Positions 1 to 47,204 of a stretch of 64,000 nt of DNA are shown here, in pieces. How positions within the stretch are numbered: position 1 is the first letter of the stretch; every line of letters begins with the position of its first letter. The translations under genes and the position numbers were made by a program. Source of the stretch: Atriophallophorus winterbourni (Eukaryota > Platyhelminthes > Trematoda > Plagiorchiida > Microphallidae); assembly GCA_013407085.1 (NCBI GenBank), contig JACCGJ010004943.1, forward strand, positions 62,001-126,000. Direction: 5' to 3'. The notes beneath the pieces were generated by a model. It made no database searches, was not told the DNA's origin, and worked only from the letters and a program-made list of their open reading frames with translations.

Positions 1-3000
1 AATGAAAAGTATTAAATATCCTTTAATTTTGGAATACCATTCGTATACTTATTGAAAATATTATTGCAAAACGTAATGCAAAACACACGAGTTTTAAATG
101 GTAAAACTCCAAATTATTTTCTCCTAATACTTCTTCGTTAGGAAAAGTTTTAAGAATTTATCCCTATGAAACCCGCTGTGATAATTTAAGGAATAAAGTG
201 CCAAAATTAAAAAATGAGATTATGGTAAAATGATTGTTTCCAATTGTTGTCGATATTTTTCAAACACTATAAGTAAAGGTGTAACACATGTTTCTTACAA
301 AGTCGCCAAACGCGATTTAATCTCCTCACCGCAATTAGTTTTGTAAAAACAATATGTTCTTCTCACTACTAGTTTCTATATTTTTATAAGTTAAAATGTA
401 AACATACTCCGTGTACGGGTGGGCAACCCAGTTTGTAACGTGTTTAAAAAAACAAAGTATCAGGCTCACCATATTGAAATCGCACGACCCGAAAGCAAAA
501 ATAAAAGGGATCAAATATCCTCGTTACTAAGATTAGAATTCCAGAATTTATAAAAATATTAGTGCAAAACGTACACAAAATACCGCGTTTTGAGAGTCAA
601 AACTCAAAATAATTTTCTCTAATACTCCTCCGTAAGCAGAAGTTTTTATGAGTTGAGCCCTATAAAAGCCACCTTGAAAATGTGCGAAATAAGAAGCCAC
701 AACCAAAAAACTCAAATTTTTGTAAAATGATTATTTTAATTTTTGTCGAAATTTATCAAACACCAGAATTATGTGCCTAACACGTTTTTCTCACAACACT
801 CACCATAGCCAATTTAATCTTCTCACCACAACTGGTTTTGTGAACACAATATACTCTTTCCACTATTAGTTTCTATATTGTAGTTAAGTTAAAATTTAAG
901 CATTTTTCTTGTACCATTCAGCACCCCAGTTTGTTCAGGGATTATATACTCAAAATTTCCAGGCTCATCACATCGAAAACATAGGAACAAAAAACACAAA
1001 TGAAAGGGATTAAATATTTTTGAAATTGGGATTGGAAACCTAATTTTAAGCAATTTTAGTGCAAAACGTACGCCAAAAATACCGCATTTGAAATCTCAAA
1101 TCTCACTTTTTTATTCTAAATCTCGTTCATAAGGAGAAATTTCTACGAGTTTATTTCCATGAAACCGATTTTGAAAATTCGCATAATAAGGTGCCAAAAT
1201 AAAAAAACAGATTTATGTAAAATGATTTTTTCTATGTTTGTCGAAATTTGTCACACACCAGAAATAATGGTGGAACACATTTTGCTCACAACGCTCGCTA
1301 GAGAAGATTTGATCCATTCGCCGCAACTAGTTTTGTGGACAAAATAATTGCTTCTCACTATTAGCGTCTGTATTATCCATAATTTGAAATTTGAATATAT
1401 ATTTTTGTGGAACATTAGGTACCCCAAAGTTTAAATGGTTTGAAAACACAAATAATCAGGCTGAAAACATCGTACCAAGAAGAACATAAAGGGAAATATG
1501 AAAAGGATTAAATATCCTTCAAAAAGGGATTAATAATGCTATATGTATTTAAAATATTAGTGCATAACTTACAAAAAAGTACCGCCTTTAAAGTGTCAAA
1601 ACTGACAATTATTTGCTCATGATTCTATTCCGTTGGGAGAATTTTTCACGAGTGTAGCCCTATGAAAGCCACCTTCAAATGTGCGGAATGAGTTGTGAAA
1701 AATTAGAAAAAACTCAAATTTTTTTAAAAAGATTTTTTCAGTCGTTGTCAAAATTTGTCAAGCACCAGAAGTCAGGGTCTAGCACATTTTTCTCACAGCG
1801 CTCGCCAGTGAAGATTTAATCTCCTCACAACAACTGGTTTTGTAAACACAAAATGTTTTTTCACTATTAGTTTCTATATTATTCATGAGTAGAAATTTGA
1901 ACATATTTTCGTGTACCATTTGGCACCATTGTTTGTAAAGGTTTTATTACTGAAAGTATCATGCTCAACACGGGAAAACGGATGACCAGAAAGCAAAGAT
2001 GAAAAAGATTGAATATCCCCGAAATTGTGATTTAAATTCATAAATTAATTGGAAATATAAGTGGAAAACGTACACTAAAAATACCGCCTATCAAGTGCCG
2101 AAACTTACAATTATTTCTTTCGTTAGAAGAATTTTTCACGAGTTTAGCCCTATAAGAGTCACTTTGAAAATGTGCTAAGTATGGTGCAAAAATTGAAAAA
2201 ATCAGATTTTTGTGAAATGGTATTTTCAATTCTTGTCGAAATTTGTCAAACACCAGAAGTTATATTTTACCACATTATGCTCACGGCACTCGTCAAAAAA
2301 GAATTAATCTTCTTACCACAACTAATGTTGTAATCACAAAATTACCATCTCACTATTATTTTCTATGTTATTTTTGAGTAAAAATGTAAACAAATTTGCG
2401 TTTACCGTTAGGCCCCTTTTTTGTGAAGGGATTACAAACTCAATGTTTCAGGCCAACATCATGGAAACTGGCGTACTATCAAAAAAATGAGAAGGATTAA
2501 ATATCCTTTAAATTAAGATTACCATTTCTAAATTTAATATGGATAATAATGTAAAACTGACACCAAAATACCGCGTTTTATGTGTCATAAGTCACCATTA
2601 TTTTCTCCTATTCACGAGTTGAGACGTATGGGACACACTTCAAATATGTGCGGAATAATGTGCACAAATAAAAAAGTACCGCATTTGAAGTGTCAAAACT
2701 TACAATTATTTTCTCCTAATGCTTTCCCGTTAGAGGAATTTTTTACGAGTTTAGCCCAATGAAACCCAATATGAAAATCTGCAGAATAATTGTCCAAAAT
2801 TAGAAAATTTAGATTTTTGTGAGATTATTTCGTCAATTTTTAAAAGCAGTAATATTCTAACACACTATGCTCACAAAGCTCGCCAGAGAAGATTTATTCT
2901 CCTCATCACAAATGGTTTTGGTGAACAGTATATATTTTCCTTTACCTATTAGTTTTTACATTATTTATAATTGAAAATTTTAACATATATTTGGGTACCA

Positions 3001-6000
3001 ATAGTCACCCTAATGAATAAAATTGAAATTACAATTAAAGTTTTAATTAGAAATCTTTGTGCCAAACTTATATCCAAAATAACGCGTTTTATGTGTAAAA
3101 ACTCCCAATTATTTTCTCATAATAATCCCTGGTAGGAGAATTATTTACGAGTTAATTTCTATGAAACCGACATTGACAATGTGTGTAATAAGGTGCTAAA
3201 ATTGAAAACATCAGATGTTTGTAAAATGATTTTTTAAATTTCTGTCGAAATTCGTGAAACATCAGAAGTCAGGATCTTACACATGATGCCTACAGATCTC
3301 GCCAGAGAAGATTTAATTTCCTCATCACATCTAGTTTTGTGAACACACTTCTTCTCACTAATAGTTTCTATATTATTTATAAGTGGAAAGTTCATCATGT
3401 TATCGTGTACTAGTAGGCAGCTCAGTGTGGAAGGTGTTTAAAAACACATATTATCTGGCACACAATCTGGAAACCAAGGGACCCGGAAACAAAAACGATA
3501 CATATTAAATATTATTGAATTTGTGGTTATTATTCCTAAATGTATCAACATTATCAGTGTTAAACTTACATCAAAAATACCTCATTTTCAGTGTCAATAC
3601 GCACAAATATTTTCTAATAATACTTCCCGCTTTGAGAAATTTTCACGAGTTCGTCCTTGTGAAACTCACTTCCAAAATGTGCGGAATATATATTCAAAAT
3701 TAAATAAAAATATAATTTCGGAAAATGATTTGTTCATCTTTGTCGAACTTCTTCAAACTTCAGCAGTGAGTGTCTTACACATTTTGCAAACAACGCTAGC
3801 TAGAGGTGATATAATCTGCTTAACACAACTGGTTTTGTGAACACAATATTTTCTTCTCACGATTAGTTTCTATATTATTCACAAGTGGAAATTTCAACAT
3901 CTTTTCGTGCACCATTAGGCACCTCAGTTTGTGAAGGGTTTGAAAACATATAGTATGTGTCTCACAACATCCAAACCGGCTGACAAAAAAGGAAAAATAA
4001 AATGGATCATATATCCTCGAAATTGCGATTAACATTCCTGGATTTATTACAAAATATTAGTGTAAAACGTACAACGAAAATTTCGCGTTTTGAGTGCTGA
4101 AAGTCAACCGTTAGCAGAATGTTTTACAAGATTAGCCCTATGAAACCTACTTCGATAATTTGCGAAATAACTTGCCATAATAAAGAACTCAGATTTTTGT
4201 GAAATAATTTTTTTGAAATTTTGTCGAAATTTGTCAAACAACATAAATAATTATCAAACACATTTTGCTAACATCGCTCGCCGGGTGAAATTTCATCTCC
4301 TCACCACAACTGTTCTCGTGAACATAATATTTTTTCTCACTATTAGTTTCTATTTTATTTATGAATTGAAATTTGAACATATCCTTGTGTATCTTCAGGC
4401 ACCGCATTATGTAAATTGTTTTAAAACACAAAGTATCAGTCTCACAACCTCAAAACCAGATGACCAGAAAGCAACATTAAAAGAGATTGAATATCCTTGA
4501 ATCTTAGATTAATATTCCTAAATTAATAATCAAATATTAGTGTAAAACCTGCACCAAATATTTTGCGTTTCAGGTGTTAAAGTCGCAATTTCTTTCTCCT
4601 GATACACACCCGTTAGTTATATGTTTTACGTATTTGGCCATAGGAAACCTACTTCAAAAATTTGCGGAATAAAGAGCCAAAATTAAAAAAATCAGATTTT
4701 TGTAAAATTGTTTTTTTAATTGTTGTCAAAGTTCGTCAAACACCAGAACTTATTTTCAAACATATTTTTCTTACAACGCTTGCCAGGAAAACTTAATCTC
4801 GTCACACAACTGATTTTGTAAACGAAATAATTTCTTATCACTATTAGTTTCTGTTTGTAATGTGTAAATGGTGTGAAAACACAAAGGTTCAGGCTCACTA
4901 CATGGGAACCGAAAAAGCAAAAATGAAAATGATTAGATATACTTCAATTAAGGATTAAAATTCCTATCCTTAATTACACCAAAAATACCGAGTTTCATGT
5001 GTTAAAACTCACAATTACATTCGTTTGATACTTTCTCGATAAGAGAATTTTTACAAGTTTATTTGTATGAAACCCACTTTAGAAGTTTGCTGAATAAGTT
5101 GCCAAAATAAAAAAACTCATTTTTTTGAATGATTTTTTTGTCGAAATTTGTCACACATTAAAAGTAATGTCTAACACATTTTGCTCCCAACATTCGCTTG
5201 ACTATATTTATTCTACTCACTACAACAGGTTTTGTGAAGACAATATTCTATTTACACTATTATTTTCTGTATTATTTATAAGTGAAATTTTAACATATTT
5301 TGGTGTAACATTAGGCACCTAGTGTGCCAAGAGTTTAAAAACACTAAGTATTAGGCTCACCCCATCAAAACTGAAGCACCAATAAGCAAAAATGATAAGA
5401 ATAAATTATCCTCAAAATTGTGATTGAAATTTCTGAATTTATTAACAATATTAGTGTAAATCTAACAGTAAATTACCGCCTTTCAAGTTTCAAAACTCCT
5501 AAAACTCTCTTTTTAGGAGAATGTTTTACGAGAGCAGCCCTATGAACTTTGAAAATAGGCGGAATAAATGTCAAACATGCTAAACTCAGATTTTTGAAAA
5601 AAGATTTTTTTTTACTTCAAAACATTTTGCTTACAACGCTCGTCAGAGAAGATTTAATCTCGTTACACATCTGGTTTTGTGAACGCAATATTTTTTCCTT
5701 GATATTTGATTTTATATTATGTATAAGAGGGAATTTTAGCATATTTTCGTCTACCCATGTGCACCTCAGTTTGTGACGGGTTTCACAACACATGGCATCA
5801 GACTCACAAAATCGAAACCAGAGGACCAGAAAGCTTAAACAAAGAGGATCAAATATCCTAGAATTAGAAACAAAATTTATTGAAACATATTTGAGTAAAA
5901 CGAACAACAAAAATACCGCGTTTAATGTGTAAAAACTTACAATCACTTTTTCCTAATAGTCCCCTGATTTGAGAATTTTTTACGAGTTTATCCCTATGAA

Positions 6001-7518
6001 ACCCAATTTAAAAATCTGCGGAATATGTTGCCAAAACTAAGAAACTCTGATTTTTGTAAAATGATTTTTTTCAATTTTTGTCGAAATTTTTTAATAACCA
6101 GAAGTAAGGGTCTAACACATTTTCCTTACAACGCTCGCAAGAAGAGATTTAGTGTTGTTTAGCAACTGGTTTTGTAAAGACAATATTATGTTCTCTCTCT
6201 TAGTTTCTATATTATTTATACGTAAAAATGTGAACATATTTTCCTGTAATATTAGGCACCGCATTTTGTAAATGGTTTGAAAACACAAGTTATCAGGTTT
6301 AAAACATGAACCAAAATTACCGGGTTTTAAGTGCTAAACTCACAGTTATTTTCTCTTGATGCTTTCCCGTTAGAAGAAGTTTTTACAAGTTTAGCCCAAT
6401 GAAACCGAATATGAAAATTTGCAGAATAATTGTCCAAAATTAGCAAACTCAGATTTTTTAAAAATGTTTTTTTCAATTTTTAAAAGCAGTAATATTCTGA
6501 GACTCTGCTCACAAAGCTCTCCAGACAAGATTTATTCTCCTCACCACAACTGGTTTTGGTACACACGATATTTTCTTCTAACTATTAGTTTCTGCATTAT
6601 TTATATTTGGAAATTTTAACATATATTCGAGCACCATTAATCAACCCAGTGATTAAAATTGAAATTAAAATTAAAATTTCAATTAAAAATCTTTGTGCAA
6701 AATTTATACCTAAAATAACGTGTTTTATGTTTTAAAACTCACAATTGTTTTCTCATATCAATCCCCGGTAGGAGAATTATTTACGAGTTAATTTCAATAA
6801 AACTGACTTTAACAATGTGCGGAATAAGGTGCTAATACTAAAAACCTCCGATTTTTGTAAAATGATTTTTTTCAATTTTTGTTGAAATTTCGTCAAAAAA
6901 AAGAAGTTAGGGTCTAACACATGATGCTCACAAATCTCGCCAGAGGAGACTTAATCTCGTCATAACATCTGGTTTTGTAAATACAATATTTTATTTTGAG
7001 TATCAGTTTCTATATTATATATAAGTGAAAAGTGTAACATATTTTCGTGTACCAGTACGCAGCTCAGTGTGTAAAGTGTATTGAAACATAGTTTCTGGCA
7101 CACAAATTGGAAACCGCTAGACATGAAAGGAAAAATGATAAGTATTAAATATTATCGACTTTAGGGTTTTCATTCCTAAATTAACATTATTAGTGTTCAA
7201 CTACCACCAAAAATACCGCATTTTGAGTGTCTATACTCACAATTATTTTACCCTAATACGTTTCGCTTAGAAAATTTTTTACGAGTTCAGCCCAATGATA
7301 CTTACTTTGAAAATGTGCGGAATATTTGAATTGAAATTGAAAAAAATTAAAATTTCAAAAAATATTTTATATACTTTCGTCGAAATTATTCGAACACCAT
7401 CAGTAACTGTTTAACACATTTTGCAAACAACGCCAGCCAGAGGTGATTTATTCTGCTTAACACAACTGATAATAAGAAGACAATATTTTGTTCTCATAAT
7501 AAGTCTCTATATTTCAAG
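1..7518 (+). repeat. Satellite A, block 1 (about 500-bp monomers)
   Basis: Roughly 15 diverged head-to-tail monomers with a spacing of about 490-505 bp, judged from the recurring landmark CACATTTTGCTCACAACGCT followed by an ACAACTGGTTTTGTGAACAC segment. Each monomer also carries a segment like AAAATACCGCGTTTTAAGTG and one like CCACATCGAAACCGGAGGAC. Two inverted repeats recur in most copies (see findings). A higher-order repeat is visible: the monomers at 2719-3875 match those at 6360-7518 better than their neighbours, an offset of about 3.64 kb. Short ORFs here fall at random frames and do not persist between monomers, so I call no gene. Confidence 0.9.
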
Positions 7519-7556
7519 GTAGAATACCATTCCGAAACGCCAAAATCTCACCAGGA

Positions 7557-7599
7557 GCACAGGACCGGTTTGGAGGTTTTTGCCTCTCATCAGCTATGC
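7557..7599 (-). ncRNA. Hammerhead ribozyme, array unit 1 (core mutated)
   Basis: Read on the minus strand: stem I strand GCAUAG, core CUGAUGA, stem II GAGG/CCUC with a CAAAAA loop, then CAAA where GAAA is required, then ACCGGU and the GUC cleavage triplet followed by CUGUGC, which re-pairs with GCAUAG (six pairs, one G-U). The predicted cut is between plus-strand positions 7562 and 7563. The G-to-C change in the invariant GAAA should abolish activity. Confidence 0.75.
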
Positions 7600-7813
7600 G
7601 TATCCGATGGACTTTTCGCGTTTCGAACTAGTATTTGTGTAGACGGATGGCGCAATGCGAATCGAAGTTCTCGTCTACTTGCTACTTAATAAGTAGCTGA
7701 AGGGACTAAACTAAGCCCCAACTGATCGAACGGCAGATTGCCGCGAGGTTTATTACAACCGCAAGATAGTGCGAAGTAGAATACCATTCCGAAACAATAA
7801 AATCTCACCGGAA

Positions 7814-7856
7814 GCACAGGACTGGTTTCGAGGTTTTTGCCTCTCATCAGCTATGT
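7814..7856 (-). ncRNA. Hammerhead ribozyme, array unit 2 (core intact)
   Basis: Minus strand: ACAUAG, CUGAUGA, stem II GAGG/CCUC, GAAA, stem III segment ACCAGU, GUC, CUGUGC. Both invariant core blocks are present. Stem I has five pairs with the outermost pair lost (A opposite C). The stem III segment has lost the perfect ACCGGU palindrome seen in unit 4. Predicted cleavage is between plus-strand 7819 and 7820. Confidence 0.8.
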
Positions 7857-8070
7857 GTAACCGCTGGACACTTCGCGTTTCGAACTATTATTTGTGCAGA
7901 TGGATGGCGCAATGTGAACTGAAGTTCTCGTCTACTCTCTACTTTATGAGTAGCTGAAGGGACTAAACTAAGCCCCAACTGATTCAACGGGTTATTGCTG
8001 CGAGGGTTATTACAACCGCTGGATAGTTCAAAGTAGAATACCATTCCGAAACGCTAAAATATCACCGGAA

Positions 8071-8113
8071 GCACAGGACCGATTCCGAGGTTTTTGCTTC
8101 TCATCAGCTATGC
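8071..8113 (-). ncRNA. Hammerhead ribozyme, array unit 3 (core mutated)
   Basis: Minus strand: GCAUAG, CUGAUGA, GAAG/CCUC (one mismatch in stem II), GGAA in place of GAAA, AUCGGU, GUC, CUGUGC. Position and spacing match the other units exactly, but a core base and a stem II pair are altered, so this copy is probably inactive. Predicted original cut is between plus-strand 8076 and 8077. Confidence 0.75.
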
Positions 8114-8327
8114 GTATCCGCTGGACTCTTCGCGTTTCGAACTAGTATTTGTGTAGATGGATGGCGCAATGCGAATCGGAGTTCACGTCTACTCGCTACT
8201 TTATTAGTAGCTGAAGGGACTAAACTAAGCCCCAACTAATCGAACGGCGTATTGCCGCGAGGTTTATTACAACCCTAGGATAGTTCGAAGTAGAATACCA
8301 TTCCGAAACGCTGAAATCTCACCGGAA

Positions 8328-8370
8328 GCACAGGACCGGTTTCGAGGATTTTGCCTCTCATCAGCTATGC
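8328..8370 (-). ncRNA. Hammerhead ribozyme, array unit 4 (core intact)
   Basis: Minus strand: stem I GCAUAG with CUGUGC (six pairs, one G-U), core CUGAUGA, stem II GAGG/CCUC with loop CAAAAU, core GAAA, stem III ACCGGU, cleavage triplet GUC. ACCGGU is its own reverse complement with no loop, so a monomer cannot close stem III, but two molecules, or two adjacent units, could pair over six bases as a double hammerhead. Predicted cleavage is between plus-strand 8333 and 8334. Confidence 0.85.
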
Positions 8371-8598
8371 GTATCCGCTGGACTCTTCGCGTTTCGAACT
8401 AGTATTTGTGTAGATGGATGGCGCAATGCGAAACGAAGTCCTCGTCTACTCGCTACTTTATAAGTAGCTGAAGGGAGGGACTATCGAACGGCGTATTGCC
8501 GCGAGCCGAAGTAGAATACCAACTGATCGAACGGCGTATTGCCGCGAGGGTTATCACAACCCCAGGATAGTTCGAAGTAGAATACCAATGCGAATCGC

Positions 8599-9300
8599 AT
8601 GCCGCCTGAAGGAAGTTATAAAAGAGCACGTAGCATTCTTGAGGAAATGTTTGGCCTACCTCATGTTGTTGCACGCTCGTTATTGAACGAGATGTTAAGT
8701 GAAGCAACACGGGTAATAAACACTTCCGATATTCTGTCAAACCTCGCCTTGAGGAAAACTGCCAAATTGCTTTGAAGCAAATGGGTTGTGAAGCAGATTG
8801 GAATCATGTAACCACCTCGGAAGGCTTTGTCAAGTGTCCACCTGTCGATTTACAGCATCAGTGAGTCACATTTGAGCACCTGACACAATTTGTGTCACGG
8901 CGTGCACGTATCGCAAGGAGCAGGTTTGGGCAGCTGCTTGAAACAACAAGGTCAAACACGCATCATTAATCACCTCGTGCATACCCAAATGCGAGGAGTA
9001 GTTTTCAAGCCACTGAGAAAAGAACTGTTTCTGTTACTACAAGTGATGTAAGGCCTAGCATGAAATGTTGCATTTGCCAGGCATCTCATGAGTGAGTTAC
9101 AAAATTGTCCGAAATTTATCGAATCGGATGTCAAGTCGCGCTAAGAAATCGCCAGGCGAACCTCTGTTTGATTCTTATGTCTGTGACCGTCACATGGCGC
9201 TGTGTCATGTAAATACAAGCCGTGGTGCACTGCCGAAAATTGCGGTAAACGACACCACACACTTCTACACTACAACCACGCTGCAGAGAAACCGTCCACG
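8599..9300 (+). pseudogene. Pao/BEL Gag relic with zinc-knuckle region
   Basis: From an ATG at 8599 there are 58 codons with the Pao/BEL Gag signature FGLPHVVARS before a TGA at 8773-8775. The reading continues in shifting frames to a Cys/His-rich segment. A CCICQASHE block lies at 9066-9092; a 2-nt shift near 9093 is followed by a stretch with NCPKFIES and DVKSR and then a CKYKPWC / CGKRHH cluster near 9208-9260. This resembles the C-terminal zinc-finger part of Pao-family Gag, which in intact elements packages RNA. Several stops lie inside, so no full Gag can be made. Confidence 0.8.
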
Positions 9301-9330
9301 AATATTCACTGCAGCCATGCGGCATTCAGT

Positions 9331-9486
9331 GCCAAAGTGTTCTTAGGTTCTGTACTCATCAAGATCGAGACTCCAAATGGGCGTATAAATGCAGTTGCCT
9401 TCTTGGATAAGGGCTCTGATACCACTGTGATTACTAATGACTTCGTTGAACAGAACAGGATGCCTATAAGTCCTGCGCAAGTTTAA
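9331..9486 (+). pseudogene. Pao/BEL aspartic protease relic
   Basis: The reading frame from 9202 to 9486 runs on from the Gag zinc-finger region and contains AFLDKGSDTT (near 9400-9430). This matches the Pao-family protease active site, where D-x-G-S is usual. In intact elements this domain cleaves the Gag-Pol polyprotein. A stop at 9484-9486 ends the frame where intact relatives continue toward reverse transcriptase; the same frame resumes at 9625. Confidence 0.75.
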
Positions 9487-9624
9487 TTGATCACTTTGGG
9501 TCATCAGCATGAACTTACTTGTTCTCGTTTGAAATTTGAAATACACTCGTTTGACGGCAGTCAAGTAATCCACGTCCCTGAGGCTTACACAGTGGAAACG
9601 TTGCCGCGTGTATCACAATGACCA

Positions 9625-10860
9625 ATGTTAGCCTTGAGTGAACGGCCCGTATACTTGAAAGACGTTGACTTCCTTGATGTTAGTGATCAGCTTGAGACTG
9701 TGCTCATAGGCTGTGATGTCCCTAAAGCACATTGGGCGTTGAAACAGCGCTTAGGAGGCAGGCGCCGTACATTTGCAACCAAAACGCTGTTAGGCTGGAT
9801 TTTGCAAAGGCCGGCATGCCAAACTTCAAAGGATATCTTGTGTTTGAATTCTTCTTTGGAGCAAGGGTCCATTGATGAATGTGTCAACCGTCTGTACAAG
9901 GCAGAATTCGCAGACATATCCGCTGAAAAAAATGAACGGTCGCGCGATGACGAAAATGCTTTGTCGCTCGTAAGAGGATCAAAAATTATCGACGGTCATT
10001 TTCGGGTACCGCTACATTGGAAGCCTGATAAAAGCAAACTCACAACAAATTATTCGTCAGCTGAAAGGCGCTTAAGCAACTTGCGGCGTCGATTTGAACG
10101 CGATAGTGTTTTGTTCGAGCGTGACAGCAAGGTTATGGCACATCATTTGGAGATTGGTTATATCGAACCCGTTCTGAATAATGCCACGGAGAATATTGTT
10201 TGGTATTCGCCTCACCATCCGGCTTTCAATCCTAAGAAACCGGAAAAGCTAAGAGTAGTTTTTGATTGTGCAGCTAAACACAATGGTGTGTCGTTGAATG
10301 ATGTACTATTTTAAGGACCAAATTTGACAACAAATTTGGTCGACGAATTGCTGCGCTTTCGATTACATGTATATGCTGTTGCTGCTGACATCGAATAGAT
10401 GTTCCTCCAAGTCAAAATGCCAAACTATGATAGAGGCGCACTTAGAATTCTCTGGTGGGAAGATAATGATATTCGGGGTTCCAATAAAAAAATTAGGATG
10501 ACAGTTTATCCCTTTGGGGTAACGTCGTCCCCATTTTGCGCTACGTTTGCACTGCGTAAAACGGTCGAGGATTTCAGTCATTCATTTGAAGAAGGAATTA
10601 GGAATTATGTCTCGAAAAATGTTTAAGTTGATGATTGTTTAGTATCATTGCCTACTCAGGAGGAAGCGTAGTCCTTGATGAGGCAGTTGTCATCCTTGTT
10701 ACGAATGGGAGGTTTTCGTTTGACAAAGTGGATTTCCAATTGACGTATCTCACTTGATGATGTGCCTGCGGATGACCGCGCACCCAACGTACGAGCCATG
10801 AGCCATGATAAGCTACCGATGGAAATAATGCTGGGTGTTAAATGGGATGCAGCCACAGAC
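9625..10860 (+). pseudogene. Pao/BEL reverse transcriptase relic, catalytic YVDD broken
   Basis: A long open stretch (9625-10314) covers the linker and the N-terminal part of the reverse transcriptase, with a segment typical of the family (HHPAFNP, LRVVFDCAAK). After stops at 10314 and 10398 the palm continues with the FLQVKM and YPFGVTSSPF blocks. The catalytic YVDD motif falls at 10624-10635, but the tyrosine codon has become TAA, giving stop-V-D-D, followed by CLVSLPT. Further stops follow near 10668 and 10741. The frame is the same throughout. The enzyme would copy element RNA into DNA in an active relative; here it is dead. Confidence 0.9.
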
Positions 10861-11500
10861 GAATTTGCGTTTGATCTGAAACTTGCAAAACGCTCAACAA
10901 CGAAACGAAGTTTATTGTCAGTAGTCAGTGGTTTGTATGATCCACTTGGCTTGATGAGTCATTGGATTTTCCCTGGAAAGGAATCGCTACAACGTTGTTG
11001 CAGAAAACCTTTGGGTTGGGACGAACCGATGTGTGATGATTTTCAGCTAGTGTACGACAAGTGGATCAACAGCATGCATTCGATCATTGAGTTACGTGTT
11101 CTACGACGCATTTGCGAAGTAAATGAAGGTTTGATGTCCTTAGATCTACACGTCCTCGGTGATGCCTCGGAAATTGGCCATGGTGCCGTTGCATACGGAA
11201 TTTCATGTATGATTCAGTCATGTCGCTGGTTCGTCTCCTATTTTCGAAATCTCGAGTGAATCCCCTGAGAACTGTATTCATTCCTAGGTTGGAATTGCCT
11301 GCAGCGGTTCTTGCGGTACGTATATATTTTATACTAAAATCCACTTTTGGTGGACTAGTTAAAGACATCAACTTTTGGGCTGACTTGATGAATGTTTTGT
11401 ATTTTATTATCAATCGAACTAGTGGCTTCTCAACGTTTGTAGCGAATCGCTTGGCGTTCATACACGAACACACGATACCATGCCAGTGATACCCGTTATA
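10861..11500 (+). pseudogene. Pao/BEL RNase H and connecting region, relic
   Basis: The open stretch 10762-11259 passes from the thumb (LSVVSGLYDPLGL, a well-conserved Pao block) into an RNase H-like segment with VLGDASEIGHGAVAYG near 11150-11200. The frame then shifts near 11205-11225 into an 11205-11489 stretch containing FIPRLELPAAVLAVR, also a conserved Pao block. Intact elements use this domain to remove RNA from the RNA:DNA hybrid. The frameshift and later stops rule out function. Confidence 0.8.
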
Positions 11501-11511
11501 ATCCAGCTGAT

Positions 11512-12444
11512 TTGACCTCACGGGGTGCCATGAAGTTGTCACAAGTTGAATATTGGTCAAACGACCCTGACTTTCTTAGACAATCCATCGATACGTGGCC
11601 TGGAATTGTTGATCCGCAGCGCACTGAGCAAGCTGAATTCAAGCGTGTTAATTGTAACATTACGTCAAAGAATTCAGAACGAGGGATAGACAACATTCTT
11701 CATCGATTTTCTAGTTGGAAAAGACTTTTACGCTCCATTGCGTGGCTGGTCCGTTTCAAACGTTACATTGTTGTTATGTTTGGTCATCATTCCGATGAAT
11801 CCTTATCGGTAGGCAAACTTGGTTTTGATGAATTACAAAATGCCGAATCCGACGTTATTCGATTGACGCAGCGGAATGCCTTTGAAGACATATTGCTAAC
11901 AGAACCCTGCAAAGTCAATTTTTCATCGTTGAGGAAATTACGCTCTTTCGTTGATTAGGGTATGTTGAAGGTTGGTGGAAGAATGCAGCATTCTGATCTT
12001 GCAGTTGAAAGCATTCATCTTGTAATTATTCCCAAGAAGCATAATTTTACTGATTTATTGATTCGTAGCGTTTATTTGTTCGAAGGACATTCAGGGCCAG
12101 CGCATACCCTTAGCGTCCTGCGCAGAAAATGTTGGCTCATCGGTGGAATGTCATCTATATAGCGAGTACTTGGAAAATGCCTCATCTACCAAAGGTTAGA
12201 TGTCAGACCCGCATCTTAACTAATGGCTGATTTTCCTCCAGTTCTCGTTGCCACAGGTTCGTATCCTTTTGCCAAGGTGGGATTGGATTATTTTGGACCG
12301 TTTGAAGTAAAGCAAGGTCGTTCTATAGATGGATGTTTGTATACTTGCTTGCAGTCACGCGCTGTTCATATAAGAGTAGCCCATTCTATGGATACTGATT
12401 CCTTTTTGATGGCGCTCTTCCGCTTCATTGGTCGTCGAGGTTAA
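11512..12444 (+). pseudogene. Pao/BEL integrase relic, truncated in the catalytic core
   Basis: An open stretch of 148 codons (11512-11958) holds NPADLTSRG just before its first methionine and the usual pre-integrase region. After a stop the segment 11962-12162 carries VGGRMQHSDL and an H2C2-type zinc-binding region (EGHSGPAHTLSVLRRKCW), whose distal CxxC has become C-x-x-Y near 12180. The core at 12223-12444 has the first catalytic aspartate in KVGLDYFGPF (codon 12286-12288) and the RAVHIRVAHSMDTD block. Homology ends at FIGRRG, just before the place where the second catalytic aspartate and the glutamate should lie. The 3' LTR is absent. Confidence 0.85.
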
Positions 12445-12957
12445 CCCCAAGTTGAGAACTGTAACGACTAAAGTCGCTGTTTAACGCGTGGTCCACCCGT
12501 TTCTTAGTTCGACAATTTGAAACAATGATTCGATTTTTCTAAGATTCTATTGACAATATTAATAGACAATAACAATAGACAAACCTCAACTGTACCGGGT
12601 TGTACAAATGATGTGAGCCAAAAATGCTCAAAGTTTCCAAATGACAACAATAAATTCAGCCAATGCTGACAAGATAGTCTGCCAAATGATAAATGCAAAG
12701 GAATAAAATTACCAATACAATGGTGAACAATCGTCTCTGTTTTCTCTAAATACCACGAGCAAAATATGTGGACTATATGGCAGCCAAGCAATATAAATTA
12801 CTTCAGTAAAACAAAACGGGGTATACAAGTGCATAATGAAAATGTGTACACAAAACAATGTAAGATAAAATTGTTGAGAATTAAGAAGAATACAATTGTT
12901 CCAACAGGAAATAACAAGGAATTTTACACACAAATGTCGTCCTTCACAGACTAACAC
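12445..12957. other. Unassigned segment between Pao relic and satellite A
   Basis: About 510 bp that match neither the Pao element nor satellite A. Part of it (12583-12780) may be a THAP-domain relic, listed separately. The rest is AT-rich, with no LTR, no terminal repeats that I could see and no other recognisable coding. Satellite A resumes at about 12958 inside a monomer. Confidence 0.6.
12583..12780 (+). pseudogene. Possible THAP zinc-finger domain relic
   Basis: Read in the plus-strand frame of ACT GTA CCG, the translation gives VPGCTND, then KFPND, and after two internal stops IVSVFSKYHEQNMW. The order and spacing recall the THAP DNA-binding domain: an N-terminal cysteine pair, a K-F-P block and a C-S-K-H-F-like zinc-ligand end. 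One end-ligand cysteine appears as phenylalanine. THAP domains occur in P-element-type transposases and in host regulators. There is no downstream transposase that I can recognise. This is a pattern match by eye over a short, broken stretch and could be chance. Confidence 0.35.
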
Positions 12958-14110
12958 ATTCTGCACACAATGCTCGCCGGAGGAGTTTGAATCTTCTTAA
13001 TACAACTGATTTTGTGAACACAATAATATCTTCTCGCTAATGCTTCCTATATTAAATGTAAGTGTAAATGTTAACATATTTTCGAGTACTATCAGGAAAC
13101 TTTAGGTGTAAAGGGCTTAACATCACAGATTATCAGGCGCACACACCGAAACATGAGTACTAAAAAGCAAAAATGATATGGATTAAATATCCCAGAACAT
13201 GAATTAAAATTCGTATATATGTTTAATATATTAGTGTAAAATTTACACCAAAAATACCGCGTTTCGAAATTCGAAACTCACAAATATTTTCACTTAATTC
13301 TCACCCGTTAGATTTTTTCACGAGTTGAGCCCTATGAAACCCACTTCGAAATTGTGCGGAATGAGGTGACAAAATAAAAAAAATCATATTTTCGGAAAAT
13401 GTTTTTTTTTAAATTTGTCAAACAACAGATGTAATGGCCGAACACATTTTGTTCACAACGCTCGCAGGAAAAGATTTATTCTCCTCACCACAACTGTATT
13501 GGTGAACACAAAATGTTCTTTCCAATATCATTTGCTATATTATTAAATAGTAAAAATTTGAAAATATTTCCGTGCACCATTAGACACCCCAATGTGTATA
13601 GGGTTAAACAACAGAAAGTATCAGCCTCACCACATCGAAACCAGAGGCTAACGAAGCAGAAATAAAAAGCATAAAATATCCTTGAAATCAGGATTTAAAT
13701 TCCTAAATTAATTGAAAATATTATTGTAGAACATACAAAGTAGTACAAAAAACACCGCGTTTAAAGTGTCTCAACTCACAACTAAATTCTTCAAATACTC
13801 CCCAGTTAGTATATTTTTTCACAAATGTAGCCCTATGAATCCCATTCAAAAAATGTGCGGAGTATGTTGCCGAAATTAAAAAATGCTGATTTTTGGAAAA
13901 TGATTTTTTTGTTTGTTGAAATTTGTCAAACACCAGAAGTAAGCGTCTAACGCAATTTGCTCACAACACTCGCCAGAGAAGATTCGATCTCCTGACTACA
14001 ACTGGTTTTGTGAACACATAAATTTTATCTCACTTTCATTTTCTATATTATTGATAAATGGAAATTTAAACACATTTTTCTGTATCATTAGGAACCGCAG
14101 TCTGTAAAGT
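12958..14110 (+). repeat. Satellite A, block 2
   Basis: About 2.3 monomers in the plus orientation between the unassigned segment and the hammerhead SINE. The segment 13690-14098 is most like 17470-17880 in the next block (both carry a run with ACAAAGTAGTACAAAAA), which shows higher-order repetition across the SINE insertion. Confidence 0.9.
14099..14110. repeat. Target-site duplication, left copy
   Basis: AGTCTGTAAAGT, repeated exactly at 14869-14880 on the other side of the SINE. Related satellite monomers without the insertion read GCAGTGTGTAATG (about 16357) and GCAGTGTGTGAAG (about 18362) at this spot, so they act as empty sites. Confidence 0.9.
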
Positions 14111-14243
14111 CTGTTCGGTTGGGCGACCACAATATTTATTGCTGGCTCCTTCTGAACTGGTCGGGCAAACAAAGCTACTCAAATGTGCCAGTCTGGAGAA
14201 CAGTTCATAAACGCTTAATTGCGATCGGTCAAACGGTGGACTG

Positions 14244-14299
14244 TAGCCCAAGTCGTTAAGGCATGGGACTACAATGGTGATGGTCGGGGGTTCGAATCC
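14244..14299 (+). promoter_or_regulatory. tRNA-like pol III promoter, SINE unit 1
   Basis: A box TAGCCCAAGTCGTTAAGG at 14244-14261 and B box GGTTCGAATCC at 14289-14299. The A box with TTAAGG and the following GGACT recall tRNA-Ser or tRNA-Leu genes. The spacing fits an internal type 2 promoter for RNA polymerase III. A tRNA cloverleaf cannot be closed because no acceptor stem pairs across it, so it is a derivative and not a tRNA gene. Confidence 0.8.
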
Positions 14300-14320
14300 C
14301 GCCCCCGAAGCGGTGGATAT

Positions 14321-14365
14321 GCACTGCTGATGAGCTCAAATGAGAGCGAAACGCGAGTCCAGTGC
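14321..14365 (+). ncRNA. Hammerhead ribozyme, SINE unit 1
   Basis: All parts are present: stem I GCACUG with CAGUGC (six perfect pairs), CUGAUGA, stem II GCUC/GAGC with a six-base loop, GAAA, stem III of two pairs (AC/GU) closed by the tetraloop GCGA (GNRA class), and the cleavage triplet GUC at 14357-14359. Predicted cleavage is after 14359. The short stem III with a tight loop is the same design as in Sm-alpha. The core has no visible defect. Confidence 0.92.
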
Positions 14366-14672
14366 TTCCATTATGGACCGTCGTGATCAACTTTGTGAAT
14401 AGTTCGATGGGCTTGGCACGGATGAGTAGTCACAAATATAAACAACTTATTCTCCAAATACCGCTTAAACAACAATGCCCGTCAGATCTAATCGGTGTAA
14501 GCTTACACTGTATCTGATGGGAAGACCTGACACGGAGATCTGTTCGGTTGGGCGACCACAATAGATATTGCTGGCTCCTTCTGAACTGGTCGGGCAAACA
14601 AAGCTACTCAAATGTGCCAGTCTGGAGAACAGTTCATAAACGCTTAATTGCGATCGGTCAAACGGTGGACGG

Positions 14673-14727
14673 TAGCCCAAGTCGTTAAGGCGTGGGACTA
14701 CAATGGCGATGGTCGGGGTTCGAATCC
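14673..14727 (+). promoter_or_regulatory. tRNA-like pol III promoter, SINE unit 2
   Basis: A box TAGCCCAAGTCGTTAAGG at 14673-14690 and B box GGTTCGAATCC at 14717-14727, both identical to unit 1. The region between differs by a few bases. Confidence 0.8.
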
Positions 14728-14748
14728 CGTCCCCGAAGCGGTGGATAT

Positions 14749-14793
14749 GCACTGCTGATGAGCTCAAATGAGAGCGAAACTCGAGTCCAGTGC
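14749..14793 (+). ncRNA. Hammerhead ribozyme, SINE unit 2
   Basis: Same architecture as unit 1, 428 bp downstream: GCACUG/CAGUGC, CUGAUGA, GCUC/GAGC, GAAA, GUC at 14785-14787. The stem III loop is UCGA instead of GCGA. Predicted cleavage is after 14787, so cutting at both sites would release one 428-nt unit (14360-14787). Confidence 0.92.
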
Positions 14794-14868
14794 TTCCATT
14801 ATGGACCGTCGTGATCAACTTTGTGAATAGTTCGATGGGCTTGGCACGGATGAGTAGTCACAAATATA

Positions 14869-17800
14869 AGTCTGTAAAGTATTTAACAACACAACGTATC
14901 GGGCTCACAACATTCAAACCATAGGATAAGAATGCAAAAACGAAATGGATGAAATATACACGAAATTTATATTAATATTCCTAAATTTAATCAAAATATT
15001 AGTGTACAACTTAGAACAAAAATACCGTGTTTTTAATGTCTGAAGTCACAATTAATTTCTCATAATAAATCATCGTAAGGATATTTTTTTACTAGTATAG
15101 CCCTATGATTTCCAATATGAAAATGTGGGGAGAAAGTTGCCGAAAATCAAAAAACGCAGATTCTTAGAAAATGATTTTTTTCAATTTTTGTCGAAATTAG
15201 TCACACACCAGATAGATGGGTCTAACCCATTTTGCGCAAAACGCTCACCAGAGGAGATTTAATCTTCCCACTACAACGGGTTTTGTGAACACTATATTTT
15301 CTCTTCACTACTAGTTACTATATTATTCTAAAAATTAAATGTAAACATATTTTCGTGTATATTTAGGAGCCACAGTGAGTAAAGTATTTAAAAACACAAC
15401 GTCTTAGGCTCACCACATCGAAACCATCGGAACGCAGAAATGAGAAGGATAAAATATGCTTGAAAAATGGATTAAAATTCCTACATTCATTGCAAATATT
15501 AGTGTAAATCTTAGACCAAAAATACCGCGTTTTGATTCTCTAAACTCACAATAATTTTCTTCTTATACCTTTCCCTAAGGTTTATTTTTTACGCGTTTAG
15601 CACTGAAAGAACCACATTTAAAATATGCGGAATAAGGTGTCAGAGTTAAAAAACTCGATTTTTAAAAAAAAAATTTTTAATTTTTGTCAAACATCAGACG
15701 TATGGGTCTAACACATTTTGCGCACAACGGCCACCAGAGGAGATTTTATCTCCTCACCCAAACTGGTTTTGTGAACAGCATATTTTTTTCTCACAATAAC
15801 TTTCTATATTATTACTTAGTGGAAATCTGGAAATAATTTCGTGTTTCTTTAGGCATCCCACTATGCAAAGGGTTTAACAACTCAAAATATCAGACTTACC
15901 ACATCAAAACTAGAGGACCACGAAGCGAAAAGAAAAAGGATAACATAAACTTGAAATTAAAATTTATATTCCTAAATTTAATTAAAATATCATTGTTAAA
16001 CTTAGACCAAAAACACCGCGTTTGAAGTGTCTAAACTCAAAATTGTTTACATCTGATACTCCCCCGTTAGGTGAATTTTTTTAAGTTTGACACTATAAAA
16101 ACTACTTTCAAAATGTGCGGAAACACGTGGCGAAATCGATGAACTCAGATTTTTTGGAAATGATTTTCGTCAATTTTTTTGAAATTTTTGTTAAACACCA
16201 GAAGTGAGCGTCAAACACATTTTGCTCACAACGCTCGCCATAGGAGATTCAATCTCCTGACCACAATTGGTTTGTAAACACAATAATTTTTTCTCATTAA
16301 TGTTTTCTATATTATTACTTAGTGGAAATTTAAACATATTTTCTTGTATCTCCAGGAAGCGCAGTGTGTAATGTAATTAAAAACACAACGTATCGGGCTC
16401 ACAACATTGAAATCAGATGATTATAAAGCAGAAATGAAATGAATGAACAATACACGAAATTGGCATTGAATTTCTTAAATTTCTTAAATATATTAGTGTA
16501 CAACTTTGACCAAATATACCGCGTTTTTAATGTCTGAACTCACAATTATTCTCTCATAATACTCTATCGTTAGGATAATTTGTTACGAGTTGAGCTCTTC
16601 GAATCCCACTTTAAAAATGTGCGGAGTAAGTTGCCGAAGTTAAAAAACATAGAGTTTTGGGAATGGATTTTTTTCATTTTTGTCGAAATTTGTCAAACTC
16701 CAGAAAATCAGGTCTATCACTCTTCGTTCGCAACGCTCGCCAGAGGAGATTTGAACTCCTCACCACAACTGGCTGTGTGAACACAATATTTGCTTCTCAA
16801 TTTTAGTATCTTTATTATTAATAAATGAAAATTTGAACAGATTTTCGTGTATTTTTAAGAACCACAGTGTGTAAATTAATTGAAAACGAAACGTATTAGG
16901 CTCACCACATCTGAATCAAAAAATCAGAAAGCTAAAATAACAAACAAGAAATTTATTCGAAATTTGGATCAAAATTCCTATATTTATTAAAAATATTGGT
17001 GTAAAACTTAAACCAAAAGTTCTGCGTTTTGGGTGTCTGAATTCACAATTTTTTTCTTCTAATACTCCCTCGTTTGGATAATGCTTTACCAGTTATGCAC
17101 TATGAAAACTCACTTTCGAAATATGCGGAAAAAGGTGCCGAAGTTAAAAAAACTCAGATTTTTTATAAAAGATATCTTCAAATTTTGTCGAAATTTGTCA
17201 AACACCGAAAAATAGGGTCTATTACTTTTTAGTCACAACGCTTGAGAGAGGAAAATTAATCTCCTTATCACAACTGCTTTTGTGAAAACAATATTGAGTT
17301 CTCACTATTAGTATCTATATTATTAAAAAAAATTAAATTTAATCATATTTTCGTGTACCATTATGCACCCTAGTGTGTGAAGGGTTTAACAACAAAAAGT
17401 ATTGCATCAAAACCGGAGGACCACGGAGCAATAACAAAAAGGATGAAATATCATCGAAATCAGGATTTAAATTCCTTAATTCATTGAAAATATTATTGTA
17501 GAACACACAAAGTAGTACAAAAACACCGCGTTTAAAGTGTCTTAACTCACAATTATTTTCTTCTAATACTCCCCAGTTAGTATATTTTTTACAAATGTAG
17601 CCCTATGAATCACACTTAAGAAAATGTGTGGAGTAAGTTGCCGAAATTTATAAGATGCTGATTTTTGGAAAATAAATTTTTCGAATTTTGTCGAAATTTG
17701 TCAAACATCAGAAGTATATGTTTCAAACATTTTGCTCACAACGCTCGCCAGAGGAGAAATAATCTCCTCATACAACTGGTTGTAAAACACAATAATTTCG

Positions 17801-19328: not shown

Positions 19329-19527
19329 CCACGATATGTTTAATATACGACAAATGCTTCGTAGATGAAAAGCATTCAGCTTCTGTTCGTGTCTTGCGTG
19401 AGTGGTCTAGGTTTCACTGCCGTACAGTAAAGCATTTGGTACGCACGTGCTGTACACCATCATCTTCGTCTTTAGAGCCAGCTCGCGATTACCTCGAACA
19501 CGAGAGTTTGAACGAAACAGAATGACA

Positions 19528-20297
19528 GCTGCTATGCCAATCCGCTTATCAATTTCAGTGTCTCTTGCGATAGGTTATCCGCAACGGTTGAACCGAGGTA
19601 TGTGAACTGATGAACTGATTCAAGCTGACAGTTCACAAAAGTTATGATGAGGGGCGATACAATTCCTCGGCCGACGACTTTGGTTCTGCTCAAGCTGATT
19701 GTTAGACCAAATTCTTTGCATGCCGACGAAAACTAGTCAATTAGAGACTAAAGGTGCTCTTGGGAGTAAGCACAAAAGGCTGCATCGTCAGCAAACAGCA
19801 GGTCGCGGATTAGCACATTTCGTGCTTTGGTTTTGCTCTGAACCGGTTTAGGTTGAAAAACTGGTCATCCCTTGCATGTGTAGGTAAATAACTTTTGTTC
19901 TCGCATCCTAAAGCTGCTATGCCAATCCGCTTATCAATTTCAGTGTCTCTTGCGATAGGTTATCCGCAACGGTTGAACCGAGGTATGTGAACTGATGAAC
20001 TGATTCAAGCTGACAGTTCACAAAAGTTATGATGAGGGGCGATACAATTCCTCGGCCGACGACTTTGGTTCTGCTCAAGCTGATTGTTAGACCAAATTCT
20101 TTGCATGCCGACGAAAACTAGTCAATTAGAGACTGGAGGTGCTCTTGGGAGTAAGCACAAAAGGCTGCATCGTCAGCAAACAGCAGGTCGCGGATTAGCA
20201 CATTTCGTGCTTTGGTTTTGCTCTGAACCGGTTTAGGTTTGAATGCTGGTCATCCCCTTGCATGTGTAGGTAAATAACTTTTGTTCTCGTCCTAAAA
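19528..20297 (-). repeat. 385-bp tandem duplication inside RTE-2 copy A
   Basis: Two almost identical copies, 19528-19912 and 19913-20297. The shared starting words GCTGCTATGCCAATCCGC fall at 19528 and 19913. The two are far more alike than copy A is to copy B, so this duplication is recent compared with the LINE insertion. Only a few differences are visible (for example GACTAAAGG against GACTGGAGG, and TGAAAAACTGG against TGAATGCTGG). Confidence 0.9.
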
Positions 20298-28022: not shown

Positions 28023-29700
28023 CCTTCGTTATCATTTTCCAAATATCTGAGTTTTTATAATTTTTCTACATTTTACCACTTTCTTAAATCAGGTTTCATA
28101 GGGCTTAACTCGTAAAAAATTCTCCTCAGGAGAGATTATTAGGTGAAAATAATTGTGAGTTTTTCACGCGGTACATTCGGTGTAGGTTTGACAGTAATAT
28201 TTGAAATAAATTTGGGAATTTTGATTTCAATTTCAACAAGATATAATCCTTTTCACTCTTGCTTTTTTAACCTCCGGTTCTGATGTGATGATCCGTAATC
28301 TTTGTGTTTTTATAATTTTTATACGCCATGGTGCTTCACGGTACATGAAAATATGTTAAAATGTCCATCTATAACTAATATAGAAACTAAAAGTGAGAAA
28401 AAATATTGTGTACAGAAAAACAGTTGTGTGCATAAGATTAAATCTTCCCTTGCGAGCGTATTGAGCAAAATGTGTCAGACCCTTACTTCTGGTGACAACA
28501 AAAACTTTAAAAATCCTTCTCCAAATATCTGATTTTGTTTATGTTTCGCAACTTATTTCGCAAGTTTCCCGTGTGGGTTTCATTTGGCTAAACACCTAAA
28601 CGTTCTCCTAACGGGAGAGTATTAAAATAAAATATGTATGAGAGATGACACTTGAAACGCAATAATTTGGAGTAAGTTTTGCTCTAATATTTTTAAAGAT
28701 TTAGGATTTTTAATCCAAATTTCGAGTATATTTAATCCCTCTCTATTTTTACTTCTTGCATTTCTGTTTCGATGTGGTGAACCTGATGCTTTGTGTTTTA
28801 AAACCATATACACAGAGGTTTGCCTAGTGATACACGAAAATACGTAACAACATCCATTTATAAATCCTATAGAAATTATTAGAAAAATAAAAATATTACG
28901 TTTACAAAACCAGTTGTGGTGAGTATATAATATGTTTTCTGGCGAGCGTTGTAAGCAAAATGTGTTAGACCCTTACTTCTGGTGTTTGAAATATTTCGAC
29001 AAAAATTAAAAAATCATTTTCGGAAACCATGATTTTTTTAATTTTGGAACTCATTGTGCACATATGCACATGGATTTCATGAGGCTTAACTCGTGCAAAA
29101 TTCTTCTAGAGGTGGAGAAATGAGAAAATGATTATGAGATTTGACCCTTGAAACGCAGTTATTTTGGTGTGAGTTTTTCAGTAATATGTTTAATAAATAT
29201 AGGAATTTCAATCCCAATTTTAGGTCTATTTAATCCTTTACATTTTCGCCCTCTGGATCTCCGGTTTTAATTTTTTCAGCCTGATACTTAGTGCTTTTGA
29301 ACCATTTTGTCACGGGGGTACCTATTTATACACAAATTAATGTTAGGATTTAAACTAATAACTAAAATAGAAACAAATCATAAGAAGAATATATTGTGTT
29401 TACAAAAGCAGTTGTTGTGGGGAGAGGAAATCTCCTCTGGAGAGCGTTCTAAGCTGAATGCATTAGATACTTGCTCCTGGTGTTTGACAAATTTCGACAA
29501 AATATGAAAAAAATATTTTTTTAAAAACTTGTTTTTTTCCAATTTTGGCGCCTTTTCTCGCACATTTTTGAATTTGGTTTCATAGGTCTTACCACCTAAA
29601 CGTTCTCCTAACGGGGGTGTATTTTAATGAAATATGAATAAGTGATGACACTTGAAACGCAGTAGTTTGGTATAAGTTTTACATTTTTATTTTTAAAAAA
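28023..29700 (-). repeat. Satellite A, inverted block
   Basis: About 3.4 monomers in reverse orientation. Landmarks appear as their complements: CGTAAAAAATTCTCC, CCAGTTGTGGTGAG, GTTGTAAGCAAAATGTG. The left switch is at about 28022, after CAACACAACTG, and the right switch at about 29700, before ACACATTTTGCTCAC. Confidence 0.88.
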
Positions 29701-46089: not shown

Positions 46090-46573
46090 TTGCTTTATTG
46101 ACTTCCGCGCCGCCTTGTAATCCGTAGACCATGTTTGTTTATGGGACATCATGCTATCGGATGGGGTTCCATTAAAGCTCGTCAACCTAATCAGAGCCTA
46201 CTACAGCTCTACAAGGGCACGGGTAGGTGTCTACGGTGAAGAATCGCGTGAATTTAACTTGCACATAGGAGTGAGGCAAGGTTGCCTGCTATCGCGGTTT
46301 ATGTTTAACTATGTCATAGACTGGATAATGAACCTGGCGTTAACAGATTATCAAAAGGTGCAAATTTCAACGCATCTATGGATTTCCGACCTTGACTACG
46401 CTGACGATATAGTCGTTCTGGGCGACAATAACGAAATGCTGCAAAGCGTTTCAGACCGCATTAGTGCCACTGCCGCGAAAGTTGGTCTTGAGATAAACGC
46501 GGCTAAAACCAAGGCATTTTTATACCGACACACCAGGCATCCAGCCACTTCGCGTCCAGGGTTGTCCGATTGA
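46090..46573 (+). pseudogene. RTE-1 reverse transcriptase palm
   Basis: Just upstream of the 140-codon open stretch (46151-46573) motif A is visible as CFIDFRAAL followed by a stop where F-D should be (near 46124). The stretch itself has ARVGVYGEESREFNLHIG, motif B as VRQGCLLSRFMFNYVIDW, motif C as LDYADDIVVLG with YADD at 46397-46408, and GLEINAAKTK. The two catalytic aspartates of motif C are intact, but motif A is broken by the stop. Confidence 0.9.
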
Positions 46574-46610
46574 ATACGTTCCAGTCTTCAAATACCTCGG
46601 CTCAAGTATA

Positions 46611-47204
46611 TTGCCCAATGGTCAGGCGAAAGATGAAGTGAAGTTAAGGGTCGATCGTGCTCGTAATGCGTTTTTGCAGTTGGAGGGCACCCTTTGGCGC
46701 AAGCCCGGGATCAGCCTAAAAACTAAGACGCGTGTTTATCAAGCAGCGATCCGCCCTGTACTGCTTTACGGATGCGAGACATGGCCTTTAAGGTCACAGG
46801 ATGTACGCACATTAGAAGTGTTCGACCATTGGTGCCTTAGGGTAATCTTGGGCATCCGATATACTGACCGAGTATCTAACGCAGCCGTACGAGAGCGTTG
46901 CAGCGGACTATCTCCACTTTCCGCTCACATACAACGGCGAAGTCTGCAATGGTTTGAGAACGTCTTCCAAAAGACAGACTCAGCACTTTCAAAACTCGTC
47001 CTTGACCACAAACCCGTTCGCACCTGTCGTCGGCAGCAAGGTGGTCAAGTGAAAACATGGCTATCAACTGTGAAACAGGATGTTCTGCCTACTGACTACA
47101 GAGTTTGCAGGTGGGAATTAGCCTGGATCACAATCCGCAACGATCTCGCCTCCAATCGCCGTGCGTGGGCTAGAGCGATCCGAGACATCAATAAAGCCGG
47201 CTAA
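46611..47204 (+). pseudogene. RTE-1 C-terminal domain
   Basis: A 197-codon open stretch, the longest intact part of this element. It begins just after a frame change following the palm (reads FKYLGSS in that frame) and has NAFLQLEGTLWRK, TKTRVYQAAIRPVLLYGCETW, and WCLRVILGIRYTDRVSNAAVR. The C-terminal portion has a partly altered R-x-L-x-W-F block (RRSLQWFENVFQ). It ends RAIRDINKAG at a TAA, near the natural C-terminus of the family. No enzymatic motif lies here; in relatives this region helps bind template RNA. Confidence 0.88.

Follow-up and report, generated by a model that had tools for sequence, protein, structure and literature searches.

A decayed tandem array of a probable retrozyme-type hammerhead repeat in the trematode Atriophallophorus winterbourni

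A 257-bp tandem repeat adjoining a Pao/BEL remnant

The window considered here, i.e., the whole 64-kb stretch of A. winterbourni DNA that was analysed, carries at 7519-8476 a tandem array that TRF describes with a period of 257 and 3.7 copies. The array and the retroelement sequences of the window are arranged as follows:

7519..7775, minus strand: unit 1, 257 bp (TRF and alignment)
7776..8032, minus strand: unit 2, 257 bp (TRF and alignment)
8033..8289, minus strand: unit 3, 257 bp (TRF and alignment)
8290..8476, minus strand: unit 4, partial, 187 bp (TRF and alignment)
8477..8597, minus strand: rearranged tail, made of scrambled pieces of the 257-bp unit and reaching up to the Pao/BEL remnant (alignment and letters; border placed to within about 12 bases on either side)
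8597-12950, genes opposite to the hammerheads: Pao/BEL remnant without its 5' part, adjoining the array, with Peptidase_A17 in the ORF at 10744-11259
46121-47204: LINE-type reverse transcriptase ORFs, of which that at 46497-47204 matches Spirometra, Fasciola and Dracunculus (a nematode)

The three full units are 87-91% identical to one another. The stretch at 8477-8586 is no additional unit: both the alignment and the letters show pieces of the 257-bp unit in scrambled order there. Within the 64-kb window, alignment found no second place for the unit above chance, the weakest rows (14-22 bases, E 0.7) being disregarded. Circular coding was considered and dropped: no frame is endless around the 257-nt circle, the longest open stretches reaching 43, 68, and 54 codons (minus strand) or 70, 80, and 58 codons (plus strand).

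The array and the Pao/BEL remnant interrupt an AT-rich, degenerate host repeat of roughly 490 bp, which among the matches listed (60 of 82) covers 1-7513 and, with interruptions, 12951 to at least about 35000; among these same matches, some copies are inverted, around 28035-29545, and other elements are inserted into the repeat. To the left of the array and the Pao/BEL remnant, the host repeat stops at the phase of 7513, and to their right it restarts at the phase of 7412; the resulting 102-bp overlap is no recent target duplication, since its two copies are only about 75% alike. TRF additionally reports a long array of an 82-bp unit at 49790-63997, whose higher-order periods are about 165, 247, and 327 bp, and a 385-bp unit present in two head-to-tail copies (97% alike) at 19527-20296. 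A Pfam scan covered 8 of the 17 ORFs of at least 120 aa in the window. The ORF neighbouring that with Peptidase_A17 has its best match in a Gag-Pol protein of Schistosoma japonicum (45% identity, 54% of the query) and also matches Daktulosphaira, an insect. For this ORF and the LINE-type ORF together, three of the five matches that name an organism are from flatworms (Spirometra, Fasciola, and S. japonicum) and two are not.

Hammerhead motifs on the minus strand

When the window is searched with cmscan, RF02275 (Hammerhead_HH9), the model of an amniote intronic hammerhead, matches the minus strand in all four units; the E values run from 6e-8 to 2.6e-5 for a 2-kb search and from 1.9e-6 to 8.4e-4 if all 64 kb are searched:

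7540..7612, minus strand: hammerhead of unit 1, 39.2 bits; CAAA in place of GAAA; predicted inactive
7797..7868, minus strand: hammerhead of unit 2, 38.4 bits; intact core; stem III ACCAGU; stem I ACAUAG/CUGUGC with its outer pair broken
8054..8125, minus strand: hammerhead of unit 3, 31.0 bits; GGAA for GAAA; stem III AUCGGU; mismatch in stem II (GAAG/CCUC); predicted inactive
8311..8382, minus strand: hammerhead of unit 4, 38.8 bits; no change in core or stems; ACCGGU as stem III; predicted to be cut 3' of C 8334

The Infernal check of the original prediction thus recovers every hammerhead, though all four scores (31.0-39.2 bits) lie under the gathering score of 52, and cmscan run at gathering scores does not list the hammerheads of the 257-bp units. 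The predicted cleavage-site residue, C17, lies at 8334, 8077, 7820, and 7563, i.e., three spacings of 257 each. Together with the TRF period and the cmscan matches, this spacing confirms that four units lie 257 bp apart, each with a minus-strand hammerhead. That all the hammerhead elements line up in every unit, as had also been claimed, holds for unit 4 but not for unit 1 (CAAA), unit 2 (ACCAGU and the stem I pair), or unit 3 (GGAA, AUCGGU, and stem II); a complete type I motif, comprising CUGANGA, GAAA, NUH, three stems, and an open stem I, is therefore found in one unit of four.

A strict type I descriptor applied to both strands of the 64 kb returned two perfect hammerheads, namely that of unit 4 and one at 14755 (see below), and missed units 1-3 as well as the first copy of the 14755 element. 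The same descriptor matched twice altogether in 60 dinucleotide shuffles of the window; a perfect hammerhead arising by chance in such a window is rare. No plus-strand hammerhead was found within the array, either by cmscan up to an E value of 5 or by the descriptor. A viroid-like plan as in Avsunviroidae, with ribozymes on both strands, was rejected, the array hammerheads being detected on the minus strand only.

HH9 is the best covariance match, and the likeness extends to the loops. In the cmscan alignments, the UAC beside stem I agrees with the HH9 consensus in all four units, while loop 2 reads CAAAAA in three of them and CAAAAU in unit 4, letters that would fit retained loop-loop contacts. 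In contrast, stem III of HH9 consists of three pairs and a five-nucleotide loop, whereas the 257-bp unit lacks this loop, is arranged in tandem, and scores below gathering.

With regard to conservation, 7 of 43 columns are variable in the hammerhead, as compared with 24 of 144 in the remainder spanned by four units and 14 of 70 where three units cover. Over all 958 positions, 48 deviate from the majority sequence; within the core the figure is 2 of 48, where 2.4 would be expected. The hammerhead is as variable as the remainder of the unit, and in this comparison, a weak one as it rests on four units, nothing shows ribozyme selection after array formation. The copy at 7519-8476 therefore looks dead. 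PMC8490949, which includes mutational work, states that cleavage can be slowed or lost altogether when CUGANGA or GAAA is altered.

A palindromic stem III and possible dimer action

Stem III of the complete motif, ACCGGU, is palindromic. Within one unit it can form a single A-U pair closing a CCGG loop, as opposed to six pairs between two units. Forced on one unit, the hammerhead has an energy of -15.5 kcal/mol if stem III is left out and of -9.6 kcal/mol if the one pair is included; left free, the stretch reaches -23.1 kcal/mol in a different fold. For two unit-4 hammerheads in tandem, the forced double hammerhead reaches -36.9 kcal/mol, versus -31.0 for a pair of single ones lacking stem III or -19.2 with one-pair stems, in an energy model that ignores tertiary contacts; the unconstrained minimum of this tandem, -49.8 kcal/mol, is again another fold. 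The earlier statement that a monomer cannot fold stem III while a dimer can was thus judged fair, the forced double hammerhead being ahead by about 6 kcal/mol even though the free minimum differs. These modelled energies are compatible with dimer action of the hammerhead of the 257-bp unit.

Dimer action has been published for newt hammerheads. A close parallel in description is HHR_Amex1 of the axolotl, a repeat of about 330 bp whose stem III has one pair under a palindromic tetraloop and whose monomer was 6% cleaved after one hour, the dimer doing much better (PMC7229834). The newt satellite and axolotl repeats differ in unit length from the 257 bp seen here, and the likeness is drawn from their description. 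For the Aedes and Nematostella hammerheads, dimers are put forward as a suggestion only in the same source, which states that most invertebrate retrozyme hammerheads cleave efficiently as single motifs (PMC7229834). The requirement for a dimer is so far best shown in amphibian repeats.

Folding of the monomer RNA

Three natural monomers of 257 nt, each running from one cleavage site to the next, were folded as circles and compared with dinucleotide shuffles (100 per monomer). Minus-strand z values are -4.0, -3.1, and -6.2, with 61-65% of bases paired, while the plus strand gives -1.3, -1.0, and -0.8; with full units 87-91% identical, the three values of a strand come nearer to one observation than to three. 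The predicted structure is a rod that prolongs stem I, in which the stretch following the cleavage site pairs with that preceding the hammerhead. A reading of GTTCGAAAC, upstream of the hammerhead, as a pol III promoter was set aside, this stretch falling within the predicted stem I rod. RNAalifold on the three monomers gave 75 pairs, of which none has both sides changed, so covariation lends no support. The core of the consensus circle is predicted to be out of the hammerhead form, a GCUG helix with part of the stem III palindrome competing with it; folded without constraint, neither the single hammerhead nor the tandem nor the circles take up the hammerhead.

A second hammerhead element, probably inserted in the host repeat

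About 5.5 kb from the array lies another element with hammerheads, this time on the plus strand:

about 14111-14868, plus strand: partial dimer with two hammerheads
14309-14381 and 14737-14809, plus strand: the two hammerheads of the dimer (cmscan), 428 bp apart, the second at the Hammerhead_1 gathering score

The partial dimer is flanked by a 12-bp direct repeat, AGTCTGTAAAGT, at 14099-14110 and 14869-14880; the phase of the host repeat continues from one side to the other, with 12 bases of overlap. Random pairs of windows have a common 12-mer in 87 of 20,000 cases, which puts the chance for the direct repeat alone at about 0.4%. At the fixed offset of 428, the two copies of the dimer agree at 195 of 318 positions, the agreement beginning only at 14287 owing to an indel. 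As a linear RNA, the 428-nt stretch between the hammerheads has a z value of -4.4 versus shuffles, and ARAGORN found no tRNA in the element. These data suggest that the stretch at 14111-14868 arrived in one piece, as a hammerhead multimer of some 1.8 units. A multimer copied from circular or tandem RNA would be expected to leave such a footprint as that at 14099-14880, and this dimer with its 12-bp duplication is better evidence than the array for movement of such elements here.

By its layout, the element is presumably Sm-alpha-like. Aligned to it, the 257-bp unit scores 34, as compared with 27 and 29 for the best of 200 base shuffles and with 23 and 18 when the hammerhead of the unit is masked. 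The proposed distinctness of the 257-bp unit from Sm-alpha is supported to the extent that the two align only at the hammerhead and the edges of stem I, the comparator being the Sm-alpha-like copy of the window. W25.2 of Schistosoma mansoni measures 415-428 bp, so that its longest form has the length of the 428-bp spacing, a match in length only.

A retrozyme-type repeat as the best explanation

Most likely, the sequence at 7519-8476 is a short, decayed tandem array of a repeat of the animal non-LTR retrozyme type. Animal retrozymes are described as tandem repeats with a type I hammerhead, of about 170-400 nt (range 150-450 bp), expressed as circles (Cervera and de la Pena 2020, PMC7229834). 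The array resembles them in its tandem type I units within the range of about 150-450 bp and in its highly self-paired monomer (circular MFE z of -3.1 to -6.2). Its GC content, 47%, falls between the two limits of the source, which gives below 50% in its text and 45% in its figure 1C. It differs from them in being decayed and in a stem III that looks too short for efficient cleavage by a single motif. The original reading as a retrozyme is supported in part: the size of the units, their layout in tandem, the type I topology, the short palindrome of stem III, and the folding specific to one strand fit the published description, while the array is decayed, has no detected target-site duplication, and abuts a truncated Pao/BEL element.

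As regards a target-site duplication of more than 4 bp, no repeat of at least 6 bases was found at the flanks of the array, except the GTAGAA of the unit itself, and no 6-mer is common to the flanks of the array and Pao/BEL remnant taken together. Such a duplication could have been lost, since the neighbour is a retrotransposon remnant. Also counted against the retrozyme reading are the lack of a relative, of a selection signal, and of covariation, the free folds other than a hammerhead, and the GC content.

The absence of a relative refers to scans for exact matches in viral and prokaryote collections, without animal genomes. The exact 26-base hammerhead pattern of unit 2 and the gapped pattern with ACCGGU both gave 0 matches in viral contigs. 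In genome contigs, the gapped pattern gave seven matches, about the chance level (roughly 9, estimated from pattern length, collection size, and equal base frequencies), in records with bacterial names. Literature searches, whose coverage leaves most subscription journals outside, returned nothing joining retrozymes with flatworms, nor hammerhead, BEL, and retrozyme. The 257-bp sequence family may be undescribed, the collections scanned being viral and prokaryote. The kind of element, a hammerhead retrozyme repeat, is already known, in flatworms too as regards a short stem III; of the proposal of an undescribed RNA element, what is plausible is novelty at the level of the family.

The flatworm precedents are Sm-alpha and the W-elements of S. 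mansoni, which are likewise satellite-like, with type I hammerheads whose stem III is extremely short. PMC8490949 describes four W-element families with hammerhead-like sequences of this kind and reports that three of five tested candidates were active in vitro, the other two having damaging changes. Their units of 332-428 bp (PMC8490949) contrast with the 257 bp found here, again in a comparison by description.

A rather improbable alternative is that the array is plain satellite DNA that once acquired a hammerhead and grew via unequal crossing-over or slippage, the ribozyme now being irrelevant. Such a satellite would agree with a hammerhead no better conserved than the remaining unit, with the scrambled tail at 8477-8597, with the undetected target-site duplication, and with a position amid other tandem repeats, but not with a fold advantage confined to the ribozyme strand or with a small array at one place in 64 kb. 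Moreover, PMC7229834 found expression as RNA circles for the hammerhead repeats that it tested, from coral, mussel, and axolotl.

It is far less probable that the array is a pseudo-LTR or leader of a larger retroelement, either Penelope-like or the adjoining Pao/BEL, whose RNA its hammerheads would process. The array does touch the truncated Pao/BEL remnant, and the matches listed place no host satellite in between, but the hammerheads and the Pao/BEL genes are on opposite strands. The usual arrangement of pseudo-LTRs is a pair, which the four units exceed. Penelope-like elements bear tandem hammerheads that may cleave as dimers, as reported via PMC7761336; compared by description, these are minimal motifs in pseudo-LTRs, without helix III or loop-loop contacts (PMC7761336), whereas the 257-bp unit has HH9-like loops. 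With 8 of the 17 longer ORFs covered by the Pfam scan, a Penelope element may still lie elsewhere in the window. A chance likeness to a hammerhead within a tandem repeat, to which the scores under the Rfam gathering value might point, is hardly credible given E values of 6e-8 to 2.6e-5 across four related copies and only two perfect descriptor matches in 60 shuffled windows.

Proposed processing of intact relatives

Under the retrozyme reading, an intact relative transcribed from the minus strand would yield multimeric RNA that cuts itself at every GUC^CUGUGC site. Cutting would occur mainly by double hammerheads between two units, which should be favoured because ACCGGU forms one pair and a palindromic tetraloop within a unit as against six pairs between two. 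A host RNA ligase might then close the 257-nt monomers into rod-like circles, and occasional reverse transcription by the enzyme of another element could turn these RNAs into tandem DNA.

More tentatively, the repeat could represent an undescribed flatworm retrozyme family with a dimer-bound hammerhead, in which multimers process themselves and the monomer circle is not easily re-cut, so that processing would act as a one-way switch. In animal circles generally, the ribozyme is probably blocked by a mechanism that is unknown according to PMC7229834. Should intact copies exist, dimer-gated hammerhead processing, best studied in amphibian retrozymes, would be extended to a flatworm, and one could ask whether the palindromic stem III prevents the RNA circle from being re-opened.
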